From: Methanosarcina barkeri 3
GTDB lineage: Archaea; Halobacteriota; Methanosarcinia; Methanosarcinales; Methanosarcinaceae
Assembly: GCF_000970305.1 (NCBI RefSeq)
Contig: NZ_CP009517.1
Location: 4,092,001-4,156,000, forward strand
Direction: 5' to 3'
Length of the DNA stretch: 64,000 bases
Numbering within the stretch: position 1 is the stretch's first letter; each line of letters begins with the position of its first letter. Of this stretch, positions 9,171-20,858 are shown piece by piece. A model generated the notes under the pieces. That model did not search any database, was not told where the DNA came from, and saw only the letters and a program-made list of their open reading frames with translations. Both the position numbers and the translations under genes were made by a program.

Positions 9171-9836
9171 ATGCATATAGATCGATTTGAAGAATATCTT
9201 GAAACTATTCTCTATCTCATTAGAAAAAATCAGAGCCCTGCAAAGACAAAACAGATCTCTGAAGAACTCAATGTATCTCCGCCGAGCGTGACGGAAATGG
9301 TAAAAAAGTTACATTCTTCAGGGCTTGTAGAGTATACACCTTATCAGGGAGTTGAATTGACAAAGAAAGGAACTGATCAGGCTATCAAGATCAAAAGAAA
9401 ACACCAGGTACTTGAAACCTTCCTGGTTGATGTCCTTGATTTTGATAGGAAGGAAGCCCATAAAGAAGCCTGTGAACTTGAGCATGCAGTCTCGGATGCC
9501 GTACTTGAAAAGATCTACGAATTTCTGGGATGCCCCGAATATTGCCCTGACGGGAATCCTATCAATATTGATAAAAATAATATAAGGCAAGAGGAAAGTT
9601 TTATCCCGCTTGATGAAATGGAAGAAGGTAGTTCAGGCAAAGTTGCCAGAGTGACCCTTCCAAGAGAGACAAAAGAGCGTTTGACTTCCCTTGGTATTCT
9701 TACAGGAGAAGATATCGAGATTAGGAGAAAGCAGAAACAGGGCTGTATCTCGGTTATAGTGGTAGGATCAGAAATAGCTCTCGGAAGGGACATTGCAAAG
9801 AAAATATTCATAGCTCCAAAAAGCAAAAAAGTGTAA
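9171..9836 (+). CDS. DtxR-family metal-dependent repressor with FeoA-like C-terminal domain
   Basis: 221 aa. An N-terminal winged helix (about 8-65, SEELNVSPPSVTEMVKKL) is followed by the DtxR dimerisation and metal-binding region with HKEACELEHAVSD and the CPDG block, then an SH3/FeoA-like domain from about 150 (GKVARVTLPRETKERLTSLGI). It is expected to bind Fe(II) or Mn(II) and repress when metal is plentiful. It lies 47 bp before feoB, with a DtxR-box operator in its own promoter, so it probably controls ferrous iron import. No separate feoA gene is present next to it. Confidence 0.9.
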   Translation: MHIDRFEEYLETILYLIRKNQSPAKTKQISEELNVSPPSVTEMVKKLHSSGLVEYTPYQGVELTKKGTDQAIKIKRKHQVLETFLVDVLDFDRKEAHKEACELEHAVSDAVLEKIYEFLGCPEYCPDGNPINIDKNNIRQEESFIPLDEMEEGSSGKVARVTLPRETKERLTSLGILTGEDIEIRRKQKQGCISVIVVGSEIALGRDIAKKIFIAPKSKKV

Positions 9837-9883: not shown

Positions 9884-11863
9884 ATGACAGGAATTTCAAG
9901 TTCATGCTGCACTTCGGGAAGTGAAAGTAAGAACAAAAGTCCCTATGACCTTACAATAGCTTTCATAGGAAACCCAAGCGTTGGAAAAAGCGTATTCTTC
10001 AGTAGATTAACCGGGGTAGGTGTAGAGATCTCGAATTATCCGGGTACGACAGTTGCTCTTAAAAGGGGAATTGTAAAGGCTCGGGGAAAAACTATTGAAA
10101 TCGTTGACCTGCCAGGCATTTATTCTCTTGGGGTCACAAATGAAGATGAGAAAGTAACGAAGAAATTTCTGATTGAAGACAGGCCGGATGTTATAGTCAA
10201 TGTCGTTGACGCAAGCAGGCTTGAAAGGAATCTGTACCTGACTCTGCAGCTTCTGGAACTCGATATTCCGATGGTTGTTGCATTAAACCAGGTAGATCTG
10301 GCTGCAGACCTTGGAATTCTCGTTGATAAGGACGGACTCTCGGAACTTCTTGGCCTGCCTGTAGTGCCAACGGTTGCGACCTGGGGAATAGGGCTCGATG
10401 AGGTAATGCTTGTAGCCCTTGACGAACAGAATGAAAATCAGGAACACCACCAGGTAAAATATAGCCAGTGGATCCGGCAGGCTCTTTCTAGCCTTGACTA
10501 TGCTTTTCCCAACATACCGCCAATCGTAAAAATGGCAGCTCTACTAAATGATGCTGAGTTTGTAGAACTATGCTGTATGCCACCTGAGGCTAATGCCTTG
10601 CTCTCTTCTGCCAGGCGGTTAAGACAAAACCTGGAGATAGAACAGGAAATTTCAGTACCTGATACTGTTGCAAGAGATCTCTATGGAGAAACAGGATATA
10701 TTGTGGACAGCGTGGTTTCAAGGTTTGAACCTAAAAAAAATATAAGAGAAAGAATAGATGCCATCCTTACTTCCCCGAATTTCGGAATTGCAGTGCTCAT
10801 ATCTGCCCTGCTCTTTACTTTCCTTCTTGTTTTCCGGGTAGGCGGCTTCCTTGAGACCTGGATTGTGAATGAAATCTTTGAGCCTCATGTGATCCTTCCT
10901 GCCGAAGCCGCAACTTCGGGCATGTCACCTGTCATGAAAAATCTGATTGTATATTCTCTTCGGGGAGTAGAGGCAGGTTTTGCAATTGCCATTCCATACA
11001 TCGCAGTTTTTTACGCCATTCTTTCCATATTCGAGGATTCGGGTTATCTTACAAGAGCGGCTTTTCTGCTCGATAATCTGACGCATAAGCTTGGTCTCCA
11101 CGGAAGAGCCGTGATTCCGCTAGTTCTTGGCTTTGGTTGCAATGTTCCTGCAATTATGGCAGTGCATTCCCTTGGCACGCAGAGGGAAAGGAGGATAGCT
11201 TCTCTTCTTATAGCTCTAATTCCCTGCTCTGCACGGACCGTCATTATCCTGGGACTTGTTGGAACTTTCGTAGGTTTCTGGCCTGCAGTTTCAATCTATC
11301 TTATGGAGATTTTCATTATTGCTGGCATGGGTTTGATTCTGGGAAAGAGCCTGCCAGGACAGAGGAGTGGCTTCATCATGGAAATGACTCCTCTTAGAAA
11401 ACCGGAACTGAAATCTACCCTCAAAAAGACGTGGATGAAAAGTAGAGAGTTTTTGTATATTGCTTTCCCGCTTCTACTCGTTGGAAGCGCGTTTTTGGGA
11501 GTTGCCGATGCTCTTGGCCTTCTTTCAGTCTTCCAGGACTTTGTAGAACCTATATCCGTGGGTATGCTGGGCCTTCCGGCATTTGCGGTGACTGCTCTGG
11601 TTTTTGGGATACTTAGAAAGGAAATGGCTCTTCAGATTCTTGCAGTACTTGCAGGTACAGCCAATTTTGCAGCTGTAATGACACCTGTCCAGATGTACCA
11701 GTTTGCTGTAATTACAACCATTTATATGCCATGTGTGGCAACGATTGCAGTACTGAAGCACGAACTCGGAACAAAGGATACGGCTTTGATAGTTATTTTC
11801 ACTATACTACTGGCTATTGGAATGGGCATCCTGATCCGAATTTTTGGGCCTATTTTTCTATGA
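9884..11863 (+). CDS. feoB: Ferrous iron transport protein B
   Basis: 659 aa, normal for FeoB. The N-terminal G domain has G1 GNPSVGKS (29-36), G2 region NYPGTT (51-56), G3 DLPG (75-78) and G4 NQVD (135-138). A GDI-like helical region follows to about 260, and the rest holds two Gate motifs with about eight membrane helices (GCNVPAIMA, IPCSARTVII, FGILRKEMALQIL). It imports Fe(II) in a GTP-dependent way. Cys8, Cys9 and the poorly conserved first 20 residues are unusual but not diagnostic. Co-transcribed with the DtxR-like gene. Confidence 0.96.
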   Translation: MTGISSSCCTSGSESKNKSPYDLTIAFIGNPSVGKSVFFSRLTGVGVEISNYPGTTVALKRGIVKARGKTIEIVDLPGIYSLGVTNEDEKVTKKFLIEDRPDVIVNVVDASRLERNLYLTLQLLELDIPMVVALNQVDLAADLGILVDKDGLSELLGLPVVPTVATWGIGLDEVMLVALDEQNENQEHHQVKYSQWIRQALSSLDYAFPNIPPIVKMAALLNDAEFVELCCMPPEANALLSSARRLRQNLEIEQEISVPDTVARDLYGETGYIVDSVVSRFEPKKNIRERIDAILTSPNFGIAVLISALLFTFLLVFRVGGFLETWIVNEIFEPHVILPAEAATSGMSPVMKNLIVYSLRGVEAGFAIAIPYIAVFYAILSIFEDSGYLTRAAFLLDNLTHKLGLHGRAVIPLVLGFGCNVPAIMAVHSLGTQRERRIASLLIALIPCSARTVIILGLVGTFVGFWPAVSIYLMEIFIIAGMGLILGKSLPGQRSGFIMEMTPLRKPELKSTLKKTWMKSREFLYIAFPLLLVGSAFLGVADALGLLSVFQDFVEPISVGMLGLPAFAVTALVFGILRKEMALQILAVLAGTANFAAVMTPVQMYQFAVITTIYMPCVATIAVLKHELGTKDTALIVIFTILLAIGMGILIRIFGPIFL

Positions 11864-11864
11864 T

Positions 11865-11960
11865 TTCTTTATTCCGGTTTCTGTTTTGTTCTTTATTCCG
11901 GTTTCTATTTTGTTCTTTATTCCGGTTTCTATTTTGTTCTTTATTCCGGTTTCTGTTTTT
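11865..11960. repeat. 24-bp tandem array after feoB
   Basis: Four copies of ttctttattccggtttct(a/g)ttttg starting 2 bp after the feoB stop codon. No gene is visible from here to about 12170. Confidence 0.93.
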
Positions 11961-12171
11961 ATACTATGTTGCAAGTTTTCTTACCCAGACTTGCCTCAAA
12001 AGTAACTATCTTTCTTTACTTATTTATCTAAGTTTATGTGATTAATTTAGCAAAAGGAAATTTTTGCCATACCTGGCGCAACATTTATATATTAATAAAT
12101 GTGTTTCTTCTTTTCAAAAAATTCTGTTTTTATCGCAAACTATTAATATTTGATACATAGTGTTATTTCCG

Positions 12172-12411: not shown

Positions 12412-12669
12412 CACTTCCCTTAAGGATATTCTCCCTTCTTGAAATCCAACTCTTTAACTCTTTTATTTTAAGTTAAACTTGGGTTTCATGTACTTATTTT
12501 ACAGTTTATGAACCATTTTTCTGGATTTCCCTATAAATTTATCGGGATTTAAATACTACCCTCACTCGATTTTTTCAGGCATGCAAGAACTGTACAAGTA
12601 TTCTATTTATTACTTTTATCATGCATATATCGAAAAATATTTATATAAATTTTCGACCAAGTTATTCCC

Positions 12670-12840
12670 CTTTTGCTTCTTAATTTTCTTTTGCTTCCTA
12701 ATCTTCTTTTGCTTCCTAATCTTCTTTTGCTTCCTAATCTTCTTTTATTTCCTCAATCCTCTTTTGTCTTTAATTTTCTTTTGTTCCCTAACCCTCTTTT
12801 GTCCCTTGATCCCTTTTAGTCCTCTTCTATTGTTTCCTTG
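12670..12840. repeat. 18-bp pyrimidine-rich tandem array
   Basis: The unit ttcttttgcttcctaatc is repeated about three times exactly and then drifts (ttcttttgtccctaacc) for about 100 bp more. The open frame running through it is a product of the repeat, not a gene. Confidence 0.9.
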
Positions 12841-12984
12841 AAAAATCAGTTTCCGCTTCGGGAAGTTTTATATCACAGTTTTTGTGCATCTCCAGCACGA
12901 TACGGAGCATTTCGGCAAAAATTAAATAAAAAGATTTTTGTTCCTCTTTGTAGGAGTTAGAAAAGGCAGGAAAAACTATCGATT

Positions 12985-13143: not shown

Positions 13144-14160
13144 ATGAGAACTGGACAGAGGGATGTGCACAATACACCGCTTAAAAGGCGATTATCGGTA
13201 ACCTATGAGGAGCTTGAGACTCTCAAGAAATCGATTAAGGTTTCGGTTCTCAATGAACTGCGGGCCGAAATGGAAAATGTTTCCGATCAGGACTCCATCA
13301 AAGATCTTGTCCTTTCCGAAATCAGAACAGAGCTTATGGGAATTCCTAATCCTGCCTTACTCAAGGCTTCAATCCTGAACGAATTAAGAACAGAATTGAA
13401 AGCATCAGGAGAAAATGACTCGGGAACAGCTGACAGGAAACTTAGGGAACTTGGAAGCATTCAGGATGGGCTTGTCCGCGAGTTGCTTGACCAGAAAACG
13501 ATAATTAAAAAACTGGAAACACAGATAGGAGATCTTGCTAAACAACTGGATGATGCAAAAAAAACTGCTCCGGTTGCTCCACCTTCTGTAGTCCCGTCTT
13601 CTCCTTCTACAGTTCCATCTTCTATTACTCTGACTCTTCCTGAAGACCCTCTTGACCTTCCGCCTCTTTCCAGAAAAGCCAAACCGAAACCTGAGCTTAA
13701 AAAAGAAAAACCGGCATATAGACTGGGTCAATTTAAGGAAGCTCCTGCCTCCCTGCCAGGTATAGGCGCAAAAGTTCAGCTAAAACTCAGAGAAATTGAG
13801 CCGGCAGATCTTGACAGAGAGGAAGCCGAAACTAAGTGTGAATATATTATTGCAGAAAGTGGTGATAAAAGAGGGCTTAGAGGCATTCTTAGACAGGGAC
13901 ACTCAGTTAGAGAACCTGCCAGGCAACAGCAGCCGATCAAAACACAGTTCAGGCAGCCATCCCCAGTACCTTCGTTACGTGAAAGACAGCCTTCTACTGA
14001 TAATACCGGCCCTACGAATCAACCCGCAGATGATTATAAATGTGAGTATATAATTGCTGAGAGGCCTTCGAAAAAGCATTTCATAGAAGAGTCAGTGGAC
14101 GTGCGGGACAACGAAGATGCCGAAGTTATCACATGTAGCCGGAAAAAAAGATCTCGGTGA
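13144..14160 (+). CDS. unrecognised coiled-coil/linker protein heading the smc operon
   Basis: 338 aa, ATG with GAGGT ribosome site 8 nt upstream. Residues about 20-145 are helical, with related segments around VSVLNELRAEM, LVLSEIRTEL and ASILNELRTEL, then a heptad-like stretch LLDQKTIIKKLETQIGDLAKQL. Residues 145-185 are Pro/Ser-rich. The C-terminal third carries an identical 8-residue motif twice, KCEYIIAE (about 229 and 299), separated by a Gln/Pro-rich linker. No membrane helix. It ends 57 bp before smc on the same strand. I do not recognise the family; a role with SMC-ScpAB is inferred from position only. Confidence 0.8.
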   Translation: MRTGQRDVHNTPLKRRLSVTYEELETLKKSIKVSVLNELRAEMENVSDQDSIKDLVLSEIRTELMGIPNPALLKASILNELRTELKASGENDSGTADRKLRELGSIQDGLVRELLDQKTIIKKLETQIGDLAKQLDDAKKTAPVAPPSVVPSSPSTVPSSITLTLPEDPLDLPPLSRKAKPKPELKKEKPAYRLGQFKEAPASLPGIGAKVQLKLREIEPADLDREEAETKCEYIIAESGDKRGLRGILRQGHSVREPARQQQPIKTQFRQPSPVPSLRERQPSTDNTGPTNQPADDYKCEYIIAERPSKKHFIEESVDVRDNEDAEVITCSRKKRSR

Positions 14161-14217: not shown

Positions 14218-17200
14218 GTGTATATAAAAGAGATTGAATTTGTTAACTTTAAGTCTTTCGGAAAAAAAGTAAAGATTCCCTTTTATAATGACTTTACTAC
14301 AATTTCGGGTCCGAACGGGAGTGGGAAGTCTAACATAATAGACGGGATTCTTTTTGCACTCGGGCTCACAAGTTCAAGGACTCTTCGTGCTGAAAAACTT
14401 ACCGATCTGATTTATAACGGCGATGCGTCAAAAAAGCCTGATTTTGCTCAGGTTACGATCCGTTTTGATAACTCTGACCATAAGTTACCTTTAGAGCTTG
14501 ATGAAGTTGAGGTCTCAAGAAAGATCCGGCGGACAAAAAGCGGGTACTACAGCTATTTTTATTTCAATGGAAAAGCCGTAAGTCTTGGAGAGATCCATTC
14601 CCAGCTTGAAAAAGCCGGAATAACGCCTGAAGGCTACAATGTGGTTATGCAGGGAGATGTAACGCAAATTATCTCCATGACCTCCGTAGAAAGAAGAAAG
14701 ATTATAGACGAAATCGCAGGAGTTGCGGAGTTTGACGAACGAAAGCAAAAGGCACTTGATGAACTGGAAGTTGTAAGGCAGCAAATCGAACGAGTGGATA
14801 TAATCCTTGAAGAGGTACGCACTCAGTTAGAAAAACTTGCAGGGGAACGGGACCAGGCCTTAAAATACCAGGCACTCAAGGCTGAAAAAGTAAAATTTGA
14901 AGGATATCTCCTGCTTTCCAAACTCAAGGACGCCAGGGCTGAACTGCAAAATATTGATAAGGAACTCACAGGCAAGGAAGAACACCTTGAAAAAGTCCAG
15001 CTACTCCTGAACGAAAGAATGAAGGAACTTCAAGCTCTTGAAGAAAACCTGGAAGAGCTTTCAGTCGAAATCCGAAAGAAAGGAGAGGATGAACAGCTTC
15101 AGGTTAAGAGGGAGATCGAAGAAATAAAGGGAGAAATTTCTCGCTGCGTAGATAGTATAGAGCTTTCGGAATCCGAACTTGAAGAAGCTGACTCACGACG
15201 CAGGAAAGCCTTTGTAGAAATCGATTCCACCAAGGGCAAGGTAAGGGAACTAGAAGAAAAGATTGAAGCCGAAAACCTGAGAAAAGAAAGCATTTCTTCA
15301 GAGCTTTCCGAGCGTAAAACGGAACGCATGCTGCTCCAGAGCAAGATTGCGGATGTAGACGCAAAATTTGCTGCTACACGGGATGAGCTCATGACTGTCA
15401 GGAAGAAACTGGAAGATGTAAAAAATGAAAAAAACGAGCTGATCCGAACAGAGGACCGACTTCTTGACACACTCAGGAGAAAATCATTGGAACTTCGGGA
15501 GATCGAAAACCAGATTCGAGACGCTGAAGCAGCAGTTGCTACTTCTGACAGTGATACGCTTTCTGTCAGGTACGAGCTTGAAAAGCTTTCCGAAAATCTG
15601 GAATCTCTTATTCGGGACCGTGATGATATCGAAAGCAGCCATTTCAGGATAAAGGAAGATATAAGGAAACTTGAAAACAAACTCCACAGCCTCCAGCAGG
15701 AGTACACAATCACGGAGGCAAGAGTGCGGGCATCTGAACAGGGCGGAGGCTATTCCAGGTCTGTGGAAATGGTAATAGGGGCTGCTAGGCAGGAAGATCT
15801 TTTTGGAATTCACGGGACCATTGCCCAGCTTGGAAGAGTGGACAGGCAATACTCAATAGCTCTGGAAGTTGCTGCAGGAAACCGAATGCAGGCAATTGTT
15901 GTGGATACTGATGCCGATGCTGCCGAAGCAATCGAATACCTGAAGCGTAGGAAAGGAGGAAGAGCTACCTTCCTTCCCCTCAATAAAATGAAAGAGCCCA
16001 GGCGGCTTGAAAACCTGAGTTACGAAGATGGAGTAATAGGGTACGCAATTGACCTTATTCAGTTTGATTCCGATTTTGAACCTGCTTTCTGGTATGTTTT
16101 TCAGGACACTCTTGTTATGGAAAACCTTGCAAGTGCCCGTCGCCTCATGGGAAAGGCGAGAATGGTAACCCTTGAAGGCGAACTTCTGGAAAAAAGCGGA
16201 GCAATGGTAGGAGGATCAGTTTCCTCTAAATCAGGAGCTTCTTTTGCGGCTGCAGAAAAAGATAAACTGCTTGAACTTGCAGAGGAGATCAGGTCCCTGG
16301 ATGCAAGCCGGAGTGCAGCCATAAGCAAGCAGGACAGTATTGAAAGCCATCTTTTCGAGCTTAGCAGGAAAATTCGAGACTGTGAAGCTACGATCTCAAG
16401 AAAAGAGAACCAGCTTGAGGAAATTTCAGGCAGGGAAGCAAAACTTGCTGAACTTCTTGAATTCAAACAGGCCGACCTTAAATTAATCGAGGAGTCCAGA
16501 ACCGAACTCGGAACTGAAATGGAAAAGGTATCTGCAGAGAAATCCGACAAAGAAAAGATCGTATCCGAGCTTGAGGAGCAGATCTCAGGGCTTGAAACTA
16601 AACTTGCTGATTCCCCTCTGCCTGAAATCAACAAAAAAATCGAATTCGTTGACGAAGAACTCCGCAGGCTAGATGGCCGAATACGGGATACTGAAGCCAC
16701 ATTAAACGCCTTGCAGCTTGAAAAAGAGTATACCGAACAGAAAATTACTGAAGCAAAGGAAGTTATCAGGGAACTTGATGAGAAGAAAGCTTCAAGAATG
16801 GAGAAAGTTAATTATCTAAAGATAAAAATAAAGGAGTTTGAAGAAAAGCTTGAAGAAAAGAAAGTCAGGGAGGTTGAACTTTCGGATGAACTACTAGGTC
16901 TTCAGCAAGAACGGGAAAAAGTTCAGGTTGAATACAATGCGGTCAAACGCAGGGTAAGTATTGCCTCAACCACACTTGAAAAAGCGAAGCAGCAGGTTCT
17001 TACGCTCACAGCTACTAAAAATGCGCTCTTAGATCAGGAAAAGCAATTTGCCGAAGAAATCCTGAAAAGAGGCATAGAAGAGACTGACGAAGTCCCTAAT
17101 TACGAAACTGTTTATATGCGGATTCAGGCAATCGATGAAGCCCTCAGGCAACTCGAGCCCGTAAACATGCGAGCAATTGACGAGTATAATGAGGTACAGT

Positions 17201-17745
17201 TAAGGCTTTCGGATTTGCAGGGAAAGCGGGATACTCTATTTACCGAAAGAGAGCAGCTCCTTGAGCGCATTGAACAGTATGAGCATTTAAAGCGAGATGC
17301 CTTTATGGAAGCTTATACAAGCATTAATTCCAACTTCAAGGAGATTTTCCATGAGCTTTCTGACGGGATGGGTGAACTCTTGCTTGATGACCCTGATGAC
17401 CCTTTTGCAGGAGGAATGACACTTCGGGCACAGCCAAAAGAAAAAACTCTCCAGAGGATCGAGGCAATGTCCGGAGGGGAAAAGAGTCTTACTGCACTTG
17501 CTTTCATTTTCGCGATCCAACAATACCGTCCTGCTCCTTTCTATGCTTTTGATGAAATTGATATGTTTCTGGACGGCTGGAACGTGGAGAGGGTTTCAAG
17601 GCGCGTTAAAACCTCAGGATCAAAAGTCCAGTTTATTGTTGTTTCCTTAAGAAAACCTATGATCCAGGCCGCATCCAGGACAATAGGGGTTACAATGCAG
17701 GAAAATAATCTCACAAGCATTACCGGAGTGAGACTTAATGGCTGA
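14218..17745 (+). CDS. smc: Chromosome segregation SMC ATPase
   Basis: 1175 aa, GTG start. Head motifs: Walker A GPNGSGKS (31-38) at the N-terminus; signature MSGGEKSLTALA and Walker B FYAFDEID near 1083-1117 at the C-terminus. Two long coiled coils (about 165-500 and 665-1000) flank a hinge with the Gly-rich sequence GRVDRQYSIALEVAAGNR. SMC dimers with ScpA and ScpB extrude or tether DNA loops. The residues after Walker B are MFLDGWNV, where bacterial SMCs usually have AALD. The gene overlaps scpA by 8 bp, so the two are translationally linked. Confidence 0.97.
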   Translation: MYIKEIEFVNFKSFGKKVKIPFYNDFTTISGPNGSGKSNIIDGILFALGLTSSRTLRAEKLTDLIYNGDASKKPDFAQVTIRFDNSDHKLPLELDEVEVSRKIRRTKSGYYSYFYFNGKAVSLGEIHSQLEKAGITPEGYNVVMQGDVTQIISMTSVERRKIIDEIAGVAEFDERKQKALDELEVVRQQIERVDIILEEVRTQLEKLAGERDQALKYQALKAEKVKFEGYLLLSKLKDARAELQNIDKELTGKEEHLEKVQLLLNERMKELQALEENLEELSVEIRKKGEDEQLQVKREIEEIKGEISRCVDSIELSESELEEADSRRRKAFVEIDSTKGKVRELEEKIEAENLRKESISSELSERKTERMLLQSKIADVDAKFAATRDELMTVRKKLEDVKNEKNELIRTEDRLLDTLRRKSLELREIENQIRDAEAAVATSDSDTLSVRYELEKLSENLESLIRDRDDIESSHFRIKEDIRKLENKLHSLQQEYTITEARVRASEQGGGYSRSVEMVIGAARQEDLFGIHGTIAQLGRVDRQYSIALEVAAGNRMQAIVVDTDADAAEAIEYLKRRKGGRATFLPLNKMKEPRRLENLSYEDGVIGYAIDLIQFDSDFEPAFWYVFQDTLVMENLASARRLMGKARMVTLEGELLEKSGAMVGGSVSSKSGASFAAAEKDKLLELAEEIRSLDASRSAAISKQDSIESHLFELSRKIRDCEATISRKENQLEEISGREAKLAELLEFKQADLKLIEESRTELGTEMEKVSAEKSDKEKIVSELEEQISGLETKLADSPLPEINKKIEFVDEELRRLDGRIRDTEATLNALQLEKEYTEQKITEAKEVIRELDEKKASRMEKVNYLKIKIKEFEEKLEEKKVREVELSDELLGLQQEREKVQVEYNAVKRRVSIASTTLEKAKQQVLTLTATKNALLDQEKQFAEEILKRGIEETDEVPNYETVYMRIQAIDEALRQLEPVNMRAIDEYNEVQLRLSDLQGKRDTLFTEREQLLERIEQYEHLKRDAFMEAYTSINSNFKEIFHELSDGMGELLLDDPDDPFAGGMTLRAQPKEKTLQRIEAMSGGEKSLTALAFIFAIQQYRPAPFYAFDEIDMFLDGWNVERVSRRVKTSGSKVQFIVVSLRKPMIQAASRTIGVTMQENNLTSITGVRLNG

Positions 17746-18757
17746 GCTTATGGATAACGAGGGGGCAGCGCTTGAAGTACCGCTTCTTCAAGCTAATAAG
17801 GTTTCCGAATCCAGAGAAAATGACTCTCTTTTTGTGAAATCCGAGATTTATGAGCTGTCAGGTACTGTTTCAAGCCTTGGAATCGATTGGAACCTGCTTG
17901 ATATTTCGGAGTTTGAGACCTCCGAACCTCTGGGCATACTGGTTGAACTTGCACGAGCAGGAAAAATCGATCCCTGGGATATAGACATAGTACAGCTTAC
18001 TGACAGTTTTCTGGGAAGGGTGGAAGAGCTAAAGCAGATGGACCTCAGAATTTCCTCAAGGACGCTTCTTTATTCTGCTATTCTCCTGCGCATGAAGTCC
18101 TCGGGAATCCTTGAGGTAGAGGAGGAAGAGGTTGATACATTTGATTCGGATTTCCCTGAAGATCCTGATTTCCCCGAACCTGCAGAGTTTCCTATCCCGA
18201 AACTTCCAGTTCGTCGTGTTTCCACAAGGCCGGTAACACTAAATGAACTGATTCTTGAACTCAAGAAAGCCGAAAAAAGCCTTTCAAGAAAAAATGAGAA
18301 AAAAACCAGCCAAAATTCAGAAGAATCAAGTCCTCGTCCCAGGCTTACTACAGGAGATGTACTGGGTATTGCACATGATGAAGCCATAAGCTCTCGGTTG
18401 TCCCTTATGTGGCAAAGGCTTGCCGAACTATTTACGAAGCAATCTGTAGTGGTTTTTTCCAGTTTACAGGAAAGAAGTGAGGACAAAATTATGGATTATC
18501 TTTCTCTTCTTTTTCTTGCCTCAAGCAGGAAGATATGGCTTTTCCAGGATGGACTTTTTGAAGAATTATATATTTATCCGGGAGAAGAATCCGGTTTTTC
18601 CACCGAGGCTAATCCATCCCTTTTCCATGAAATGTCAGTAAAATCAAAAACTGAACTTTCAAAACCTGAAATTAAAGACTCTTCAAAACCGAATTTGACA
18701 GAGGAGGTTCCTTCACATAAAAACCAGGATGAGGAGCCTGAGTTAATTGTGCATTGA
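17738..18757 (+). CDS. scpA: Segregation and condensation protein A (kleisin)
   Basis: 339 aa, starting inside the smc stop region with GGAGTGAG 6 nt before the ATG. The N-terminal kleisin domain (about 50-140) has the family pattern EPLGILVELARAGKIDPWDIDIVQLTDSFL and LRISSRTLLYSAILLRMKS. A charged linker follows, and the C-terminal winged-helix region (about 205-280) should bind the SMC head. The last 50 residues are Ser/Glu/Lys-rich and probably disordered. It bridges the SMC heads and recruits ScpB. Confidence 0.93.
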   Translation: MAELMDNEGAALEVPLLQANKVSESRENDSLFVKSEIYELSGTVSSLGIDWNLLDISEFETSEPLGILVELARAGKIDPWDIDIVQLTDSFLGRVEELKQMDLRISSRTLLYSAILLRMKSSGILEVEEEEVDTFDSDFPEDPDFPEPAEFPIPKLPVRRVSTRPVTLNELILELKKAEKSLSRKNEKKTSQNSEESSPRPRLTTGDVLGIAHDEAISSRLSLMWQRLAELFTKQSVVVFSSLQERSEDKIMDYLSLLFLASSRKIWLFQDGLFEELYIYPGEESGFSTEANPSLFHEMSVKSKTELSKPEIKDSSKPNLTEEVPSHKNQDEEPELIVH

Positions 18758-18882: not shown

Positions 18883-18996
18883 TTGTGCTCTAGGCTTTAA
18901 TCTTAGTAAAAGCCTGCAAAAACGACTAATTAACCCCGTCTTATTACAATTAACCTGATTAAAGAATATTTTGTTCTTTTTCTGGAAGTGAGAATT

Positions 18997-20112
18997 ATGA
19001 GTGAGCTTGAGATTATCGAAGCCGCGCTTTTTGCTGCTGGCAGGGCTGTAAGCCTCGAAAAGCTTACAAAAATTACAGGAAAACCAAAAAAAACAGTTCT
19101 TTCAGCAGTACAGAAATTGACAGAGGCTTATTCTTCCCGAGGATCCGGGATTGAGATTCTTGATCTTGGAGAGAGATATGTTATGCAGGTCAAACCTGAA
19201 TACTCCGAGCTTATGCGGGAAGTAGCCCCAAAAGAGCTTTCAGCCCCAAAACTTCGTACCCTTTCCATGATTGCCTATCATCAGCCCCTGCTTCAGTCAG
19301 ACCTCATTGATATGAGAGGAAGCGGAGCCTATGACCATATAAAGGACCTTATAGAGCGAGGTTTTGTAGACTCTGTGCCTTGCGGGAGAAGCAGGCAGCT
19401 TTCTACAACTCCTCTTTTTGCAGATTATTTCGGGCTTAAAAGAAATGACCCTAAAGCCATAAAAGATAAAATCCTTGAACTTTTGAGATTACAGGCCGGG
19501 CAAAGTGATATCAACCTATGGATAGGAAGGAAGACTATTGCCGTGACACCTATGTACGAATCTCTTATGAGCATGTGCGGAATTAAGGAATATTTCATAG
19601 CAAATGCTTACTCGCCCTCAAAGGAGGAAATTTCCCGGCTACTTGAAACCGATGTAGTCATTATCTCGGCAGGTTATTCCGATACTGTAAGGCAGTACTG
19701 CGACGGAGAAATCCTTGAGATGCGTTCAACAACTTTTGAAGACCTTATAGAAGCTCTTGCCCTACTTGCGGAAGAACTTCCCGATGAAGTAGACTCCGAA
19801 ATGGTGGAAAAAAGCGTTGAGAAAATTAGAGAAACCAGGGAAAGATATGTTTCTTCGGCTGTCCTTATCGAGAAGAAGGTTAAACCTGCAACTGAAATGG
19901 TTTCAAGAATCGTAAACGATCTTTCCCTTGGAATTTCCGCAGACGGGGTTCTTATCGCACCTGACTATGGAGTTTCGAAAAGTGGGATTAAGATCGAAAA
20001 GGATGCTCAGATCCTTATACCCACACACCGTAATGTTGAGGGTGATCTTCTTCAGAGAGTCTGTGCAAAGTATGACTCTATTCTCGAAGGTCTTAAGAAG
20101 TTTGAAGACTAA
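18997..20112 (+). CDS. scpB: ScpB-like protein with large C-terminal extension
   Basis: 371 aa from the ATG at 18997 (ribosome site GGAAGTGAG just before; a GTG at 18988 is less likely). Residues 1-170 are a ScpB module of two winged helices (SELEIIEAALFAAGR, PKLRTLSMIAYHQPLLQSDLIDMRG, RGFVDSVPCGRSRQLSTTPLF). ScpB is normally about 200 aa; here about 190 extra residues follow, with VVIISAGYSDTVRQYCDG, a helical EALALLAEELPDEVDSEMV segment and a C-terminal globular part. I do not recognise this extension. It should work with SMC-ScpA in chromosome compaction. Confidence 0.88.
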   Translation: MSELEIIEAALFAAGRAVSLEKLTKITGKPKKTVLSAVQKLTEAYSSRGSGIEILDLGERYVMQVKPEYSELMREVAPKELSAPKLRTLSMIAYHQPLLQSDLIDMRGSGAYDHIKDLIERGFVDSVPCGRSRQLSTTPLFADYFGLKRNDPKAIKDKILELLRLQAGQSDINLWIGRKTIAVTPMYESLMSMCGIKEYFIANAYSPSKEEISRLLETDVVIISAGYSDTVRQYCDGEILEMRSTTFEDLIEALALLAEELPDEVDSEMVEKSVEKIRETRERYVSSAVLIEKKVKPATEMVSRIVNDLSLGISADGVLIAPDYGVSKSGIKIEKDAQILIPTHRNVEGDLLQRVCAKYDSILEGLKKFED

Positions 20113-20306: not shown

Positions 20307-20858
20307 ATGAGCGAATCTAGCATCAAGATCGAAAATGTGGTTGCATCCACTAAACTCGCTGAAGAATTCGACTTAACTGTTATCGAATCCCAGTTCGAAG
20401 GAGCCGAGTACAACAAACAGAAGTTCCCCGGACTCGTTTACAGGGTTTCAGATCCTAAAGCTGCATTCCTGGTCTTTACTTCCGGTAAGGTTGTCTGTAC
20501 AGGGGCAAAAAATGTTGCCGATGTACATACAGTTATAGGCAATATGGCGAGAAAGCTGAACAGTATAGGGATCAAGACCATAGAGAATCCCCAGATTACT
20601 GTCCAGAATATTGTTGCTTCAGCAGACCTGCATACTATTTTGAACCTGAACGCAATTGCAATAGGGCTTGGACTTGAAAACATTGAATATGAGCCCGAGC
20701 AGTTCCCTGGTCTTGTATACAGAATTGATGAACCCAAAGTAGTTGTGCTTATATTCAGCTCCGGAAAACTGGTAGTTACAGGTGGAAAATCTCCTGAAGA
20801 CTGCGAGAGAGGAGTTGAAGTCGTCCGCCAGCAGCTCGACAACATGGGGCTTTTATAA
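20307..20858 (+). CDS. tbp: TATA-box-binding protein
   Basis: 183 aa, the archaeal core TBP length. The two pseudo-symmetric repeats are plain: [14 protein letters not shown]...[28 protein letters not shown] and [12 protein letters not shown]...[30 protein letters not shown]. It recognises box A promoters and recruits TFB. No acidic tail of note. Start ATG has gagggttga upstream. It is separated from scpB by a multi-TATA promoter region. Confidence 0.98.

Follow-up and report, generated by a model that had tools for sequence, protein, structure and literature searches.

The locus raises the question of what a protein of 338 residues, matching no family of known function, contributes at the head of an operon for chromosome segregation. 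The recruitment and control of archaeal SMC complexes are little understood, and many such complexes lack ScpB. The window, that is, the whole stretch of 64,000 nucleotides from Methanosarcina barkeri 3 that was analysed, carries the operon on its forward strand in the following order.

13144..14160, + strand: first gene of the smc operon, assigned as a divergent DUF7518-family gene of 338 aa (ATG start; homologues beside smc; family link)
14218..17745, + strand: smc, chromosome segregation ATPase (SMC_N and SMC_hinge, Pfam)
17738..18757, + strand: scpA, kleisin, its first 8 bp shared with the end of smc (Pfam)
18988..20112, + strand: scpB, kite subunit (Pfam)

A sequence-only reading had placed the open reading frame at 13144-14160 in the same direction as smc and 57 bp ahead of it, which is exact, the smc start codon being a GTG at 14218. 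The identities of the neighbours smc, scpA and scpB are upheld by Pfam, and scpB begins 230 bp beyond scpA. Across the loci examined, the median gap between the family gene and smc is 52 bp, and this short, conserved spacing implies co-transcription. Close behind scpB, on the same strand, lies the gene for the TATA-binding protein (20307-20858). On the other side, a DtxR-type iron-dependent repressor fused to a FeoA domain (9171-9836) directly precedes feoB (9884-11863) on the strand of the smc operon, and two unrelated pyrimidine-rich tandem repeats separate feoB from the operon, at 11865-11959 (24 bp, 4.0 copies) and 12670-12801 (18 bp, 7.3 copies). The open reading frames over these repeats (11731-12045 and 12581-12841) are low-complexity repeat products and not credible genes.

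By combining self-comparison, alignments and structure prediction, the 338-residue protein can be divided into the following segments.

13240..13428, + strand: three tandem 21-residue ELR repeats (VSVLNELRAEM.., DLVLSEIRTEL.., ASILNELRTEL..), residues 33-95 (lag-21 self-comparison, alignments)
13465..13497, + strand: core helix motif DGLVRELLDQK, residues 108-118 (alignments; pN/pS 0.056)
13768..13803, + strand: tail segment AKVQLKLREIEP, residues 209-220 (alignment; xFNIREV is the counterpart in the family's other genera)
13834..13857, + strand: putative docking motif, copy 1, KCEYIIAE, residues 231-238 (pN/pS 0.034)
14038..14061, + strand: putative docking motif, copy 2, KCEYIIAE, residues 299-306 (pN/pS 0.028)
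14104..14136, + strand: C-terminal conserved segment RDNEDAEVITC, residues 321-331 (pN/pS 0.143; R[DE]DEDxxI in relatives)

In the AlphaFold2 model (single chain, alignment of 17 sequences), helices are predicted at residues 22-65, 70-87 and 93-140, with pLDDT values up to 96 around residues 111-130, and residues 141-338, a stretch of 198 residues that includes both KCEYIIAE copies, are predicted to be disordered. This matches the architecture proposed beforehand, a helical N-terminal half followed by a Pro-rich linker and a flexible tail. The "related ELR segments" noted at the same time prove to be the three copies of the 21-residue unit (14 of 41 positions match at lag 21), and most relatives from the order's other families carry a single unit. 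Among the family's helical segments, DGLVRELLDQK is the best conserved, and its haloarchaeal counterpart is xGLTEELVETK. The helical half varies as well, since one close relative (L084:1108-2199) bears an N-terminal insertion of several tandem 9-residue units (NTQVLxQxxS) there. The presence of two identical KCEYIIAE motifs was confirmed, and none of 20000 shuffled tails contained a repeated 8-mer. Their identity does not stem from a recent duplication at the DNA level, because synonymous codons differ between the copies.

Direct searches of Pfam and NCBIfam with the protein returned only chance coiled-coil matches, and PF24362 (DUF7518), whose gathering cut-off is 27 bits, gave no match at E values up to 1. 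The same searches and profile searches detected no DNA- or RNA-binding domain, no ParB family match was found in Pfam or NCBIfam, and there was no match to PF02616 or PF04079, ScpA and ScpB being encoded by separate genes of the window. The connection to DUF7518 emerges through intermediates. A relative from another genus of the same family (L089, 35.6 bits) and a Methanomicrobia-like protein (L099, 35.4 bits) pass the PF24362 cut-off, and an order-level relative (L027, 26.8 bits) falls just below it. In profile-profile comparison, the alignment of the window's genus and its neighbour (A5) matches that of the intermediates (A6) with Prob 99.4 and E 8e-22 over 203 columns, and A6 matches the haloarchaeal profile (A4) with Prob 96.2 and E 2.3e-9, while the direct comparison of A5 with A4 is weak (Prob 15.6, E 0.0017). 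In addition, a core HMM of the order, built without the tail, recovers 33 of 36 haloarchaeal proteins (best E 5.7e-10). Judged by this chain of profile links, the window protein is a divergent, enlarged member of DUF7518, a family of unknown function. The earlier description of the protein as unrecognised thus holds at the functional level, because its sole family match is a domain of unknown function. The haloarchaeal DUF7518 proteins correspond to it in the homologous core helix xGLTEELVETK, an acidic linker and a C-terminal [DE]xIIVA, and in a gene that lies directly before smc. The window protein, however, is three times longer: it has an additional N-terminal helix, the three 21-residue repeats and the Pro-rich linker, its two motifs are internal, and another segment follows at the C-terminus.

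The distribution of the gene follows that of smc. With the single sequence as query, 24 of the genus's 25 genomes yielded a relative, and faint matches came from four genomes in other families of the order; in every case the gene immediately precedes smc, in the same orientation. For the phylum, a set of 295 genomes was searched that holds one genome per species, some incomplete. The DUF7518 profile matched 136 of them, and among 14 control genomes it matched Haloferax volcanii only; with the profile of the intermediates, the family gene was found in 213 of the 295. Where SMC is clearly encoded, 211 of 241 genomes have the family gene, and where it is not, 2 of 54 do, a comparison in which shared ancestry inflates the Fisher p-value. 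The sequence-only reading had suggested checking whether homologues adjoin smc, and they do: in 83 of 83 genomes, the best DUF7518 match precedes smc by 10-632 bp, measured from match to match, and has the same orientation. The same arrangement holds for the family gene in 27 of 28 further genomes, and in the sole exception (G192) a contig end cuts the locus. In total, 110 of the 111 genomes with coordinates for both genes have the family gene immediately before smc. This adjacency is common to haloarchaea and to Methanomicrobia-like, Archaeoglobi-like and Methanosarcinales-like lineages (the first three labels were inferred from sequence and gene content). Two families of the order that were missed by the first search, f3 and f4, also have short motif-bearing homologues just before smc, with tails of the form ...STEYIIAEN...DDIIVVC in f3 and ...DDIIIAS... 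or ...DNIIVAD... in f4.

The gene is not seen everywhere. No copy is visible upstream of smc in most sampled genomes of f6, f11, f12, f17, f20 and f21, and about 30 SMC-bearing genomes (f6, f11, f12, f17, f20 and others) lack a detectable copy, of which at least G049 has an undetected one. Upstream of 23 smc loci of Thermococci, Thermoplasmata, Woesearchaeota and Aenigmatarchaeota, nothing similar was found. Two genomes of f16 carry an extra, unlinked and shorter copy (L288:3515-4210 and L289:3389-3844, both on the minus strand), and both of these copies are without the YIIA motif.

The tail motif is the second constant feature. In the family alignment, a typical tail has SEYIIAES followed, about 15-60 residues away, by (C/D/E)(E/D)(Y/I)I(I/V)A(E/D); the consensus [DE][YI]I[IV]A[DE] is beta-prone and occurs in one to three copies per protein, usually two. 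Haloarchaeal proteins have acidic tails and a single copy, with which the chain ends (DDIIVA-stop), and three copies occur in one protein from outside the genus (L090). The count of motifs is not circular, because HMMs of the tail-free core selected the same open reading frame in 112 of 112 loci. Outside family f14, the motif is present in 107 of 109 proteins, where shuffling predicts fewer than one. The conservation of the motif, which had likewise been put forward as a check, is therefore borne out, with two copies as the usual state and one in haloarchaea. In f14 (L142, L143 and L144), the homologues upstream of smc retain the N-terminal helix but show no clear motif (D[KR][YF][VA]A[AS] or similar), and the docking peptide may have been lost.

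Within the window's genus, the codons of 30 distinct sequences were used to assess selection on the motif. The pN/pS values are 0.034 and 0.028 in the two motifs and 0.056 in the core helix, compared to 0.637 in the spacer between the motifs, and synonymous sites inside both motifs are saturated in this sample. The motif is also nearly private to the gene. All 16 genomes of the genus that were tested encode EYIIAE at two sites in this gene and, apart from a single additional site in G008, nowhere else. A search of 34 haloarchaeal genomes for DNA encoding DDIIVA-stop gave a single match in every one, and a reversed control pattern gave no matches; 19 of these 34 matches fall together with DUF7518 profile matches, and all ten loci inspected lie just before smc. 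A hub motif common to many proteins is ruled out by this near-uniqueness of EYIIAE and DDIIVA-stop within each genome. The motif is instead a signature of the DUF7518 protein, which suggests one dedicated receptor.

The fixed position beside smc could have several meanings. Adjacency alone is not function, and a gene serving another process may have settled beside smc by chance or for convenience of expression, as the unlinked paralogues in two genomes could indicate. However, those paralogues are without the motif, genomes without SMC lack the gene with the two exceptions among 54, and the adjacency persists over haloarchaea and the Methanomicrobia-like, Archaeoglobi-like and Methanosarcinales-like lineages, and we regard an unrelated function as highly improbable. 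The short conserved gap of 52 bp (median), with the co-transcription that it implies, would also suit a regulatory or leader-type gene that controls the synthesis or turnover of SMC, by translational coupling or as an autoregulator or degradation adaptor, and not chromosome folding. Such a role is quite unlikely in our view: the tail peptides are under strong selection at the level of amino acids, no DNA- or RNA-binding domain was detected by the searches described above, and outside haloarchaea the motif is not strictly C-terminal, which argues against a simple C-terminal degron.

An adaptor, in contrast, would use its helical core to bind SMC or ScpA and its tail peptide to dock another conserved partner, from replication, transcription or cell division, and could act as an SMC loader or anchor. 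The separate conservation of the core helix and the tail motifs is consistent with this arrangement, as are the acidic haloarchaeal tails that end exactly in DDIIVA and the lack of a ParB-type match in the protein. Nothing in the loci examined points to such a partner, though, and the gene is tied there to smc alone; we consider this adaptor unlikely, if with a real chance of being right.

Since the gene lies beside smc across the whole phylum, its product is probably a dedicated helper of the SMC motor. More specifically, we find it reasonably probable, from conservation and gene order, that the DUF7518-family protein is a dedicated accessory protein of archaeal Smc-ScpA that combines a helical rod with multivalent docking peptides in its tail. 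A helical, probably oligomeric coiled-coil rod with the core xGLxxELLDxK would display the disordered tail, and the tail peptides, which are beta-prone and partly hydrophobic, may dock at a single site, on SMC or ScpA, that is dedicated to them. Two peptides per chain, multiplied by the oligomer, would provide multivalency, by which SMC complexes may be recruited, tethered or clustered, or their ATPase or loading tuned. ScpB is unlikely to be the receptor, because haloarchaea and most Methanomicrobiales, which lack scpB according to PMC7055376, keep both the gene and the motif. Of the earlier proposal of an unknown SMC-ScpAB cofactor in Methanosarcinales, the association with smc therefore stands, while the restriction to Methanosarcinales gives way to a phylum-wide distribution and the involvement of ScpB becomes unlikely.

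A contact site was sought by structure prediction and by covariation of presence. When residues 93-338 were modelled with SMC residues 1-700 as one read-through chain (AlphaFold2), the tail had pLDDT values of about 32, formed no strand and did not dock on the N-terminal half or hinge of SMC; this is a weak negative, since the model was built from an alignment of 22 rows and included neither ScpA nor the C-lobe of the head. SMC and ScpA were also scanned for positions whose conservation is confined to loci with the motif. Residue 1075 of SMC, beside the ATPase signature (window positions 17440-17442), is acidic in 73% of the SMC sequences with a motif-bearing neighbour and in 0 of 16 sequences without one, which have Gly or Arg, but as a contact it is a weak, lineage-confounded lead, because Archaeoglobi-like and Methanomicrobia-like sequences are mixed in this comparison.

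Accessory factors of SMC complexes are already known as a kind. With ScpA and ScpB, the window protein shares the operon and, on the preferred reading as an Smc-ScpA accessory protein, would share the complex; it differs from them in having no detected sequence similarity, a mostly disordered tail and a presence that is retained in ScpB-less lineages. In bacteria, ParB is a factor that recruits SMC to chromosomes without being a subunit, and the DUF7518 protein may be its functional analogue as a recruiter, although it shows no Pfam ParB match and no recognised DNA-binding or nucleotidase domain, and consists of a predicted helical rod and a peptide tail. Another possible analogue is bacterial SSB, whose acidic C-terminal tip recruits partners: an acidic linker that ends in a short hydrophobic peptide resembles the haloarchaeal ...DDIIVA, but there is no OB fold and no homology, and outside haloarchaea the motif is usually internal and in tandem. 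In eukaryotes, short linear motifs in disordered tails (for example, those of CTCF) bind cohesin or condensin subunits, a mode comparable to the proposed docking of a tail peptide on an SMC complex, although the archaeal motif is unrelated to them in sequence.

In the openly licensed literature of PubMed Central, no mention of DUF7518 or of a small protein linked to smc was found, and a description elsewhere is possible. The passages on archaeal SMC available from PMC9764264 and PMC7055376 name Smc, ScpA, ScpB, Sph proteins and coalescin, and no DUF7518-like protein. Three points appear to be new: the presence of DUF7518 outside haloarchaea, the constant location of its gene ahead of smc, and the conserved putative docking peptide. 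In Haloferax volcanii, the only control genome with a profile match, smc is HVO_0689 (PMC11276520); the gene can be deleted there, and its loss removes domain boundaries (PMC9764264). We see about an even chance that the family is a phylum-wide, undescribed multivalent peptide-docking scaffold that works with binary Smc-ScpA, independently of ScpB, and is possibly the missing archaeal SMC loader, anchor or clustering factor. A dedicated extra gene in the smc operon, together with a motif fixed across the phylum, would give a concrete handle on archaeal SMC.
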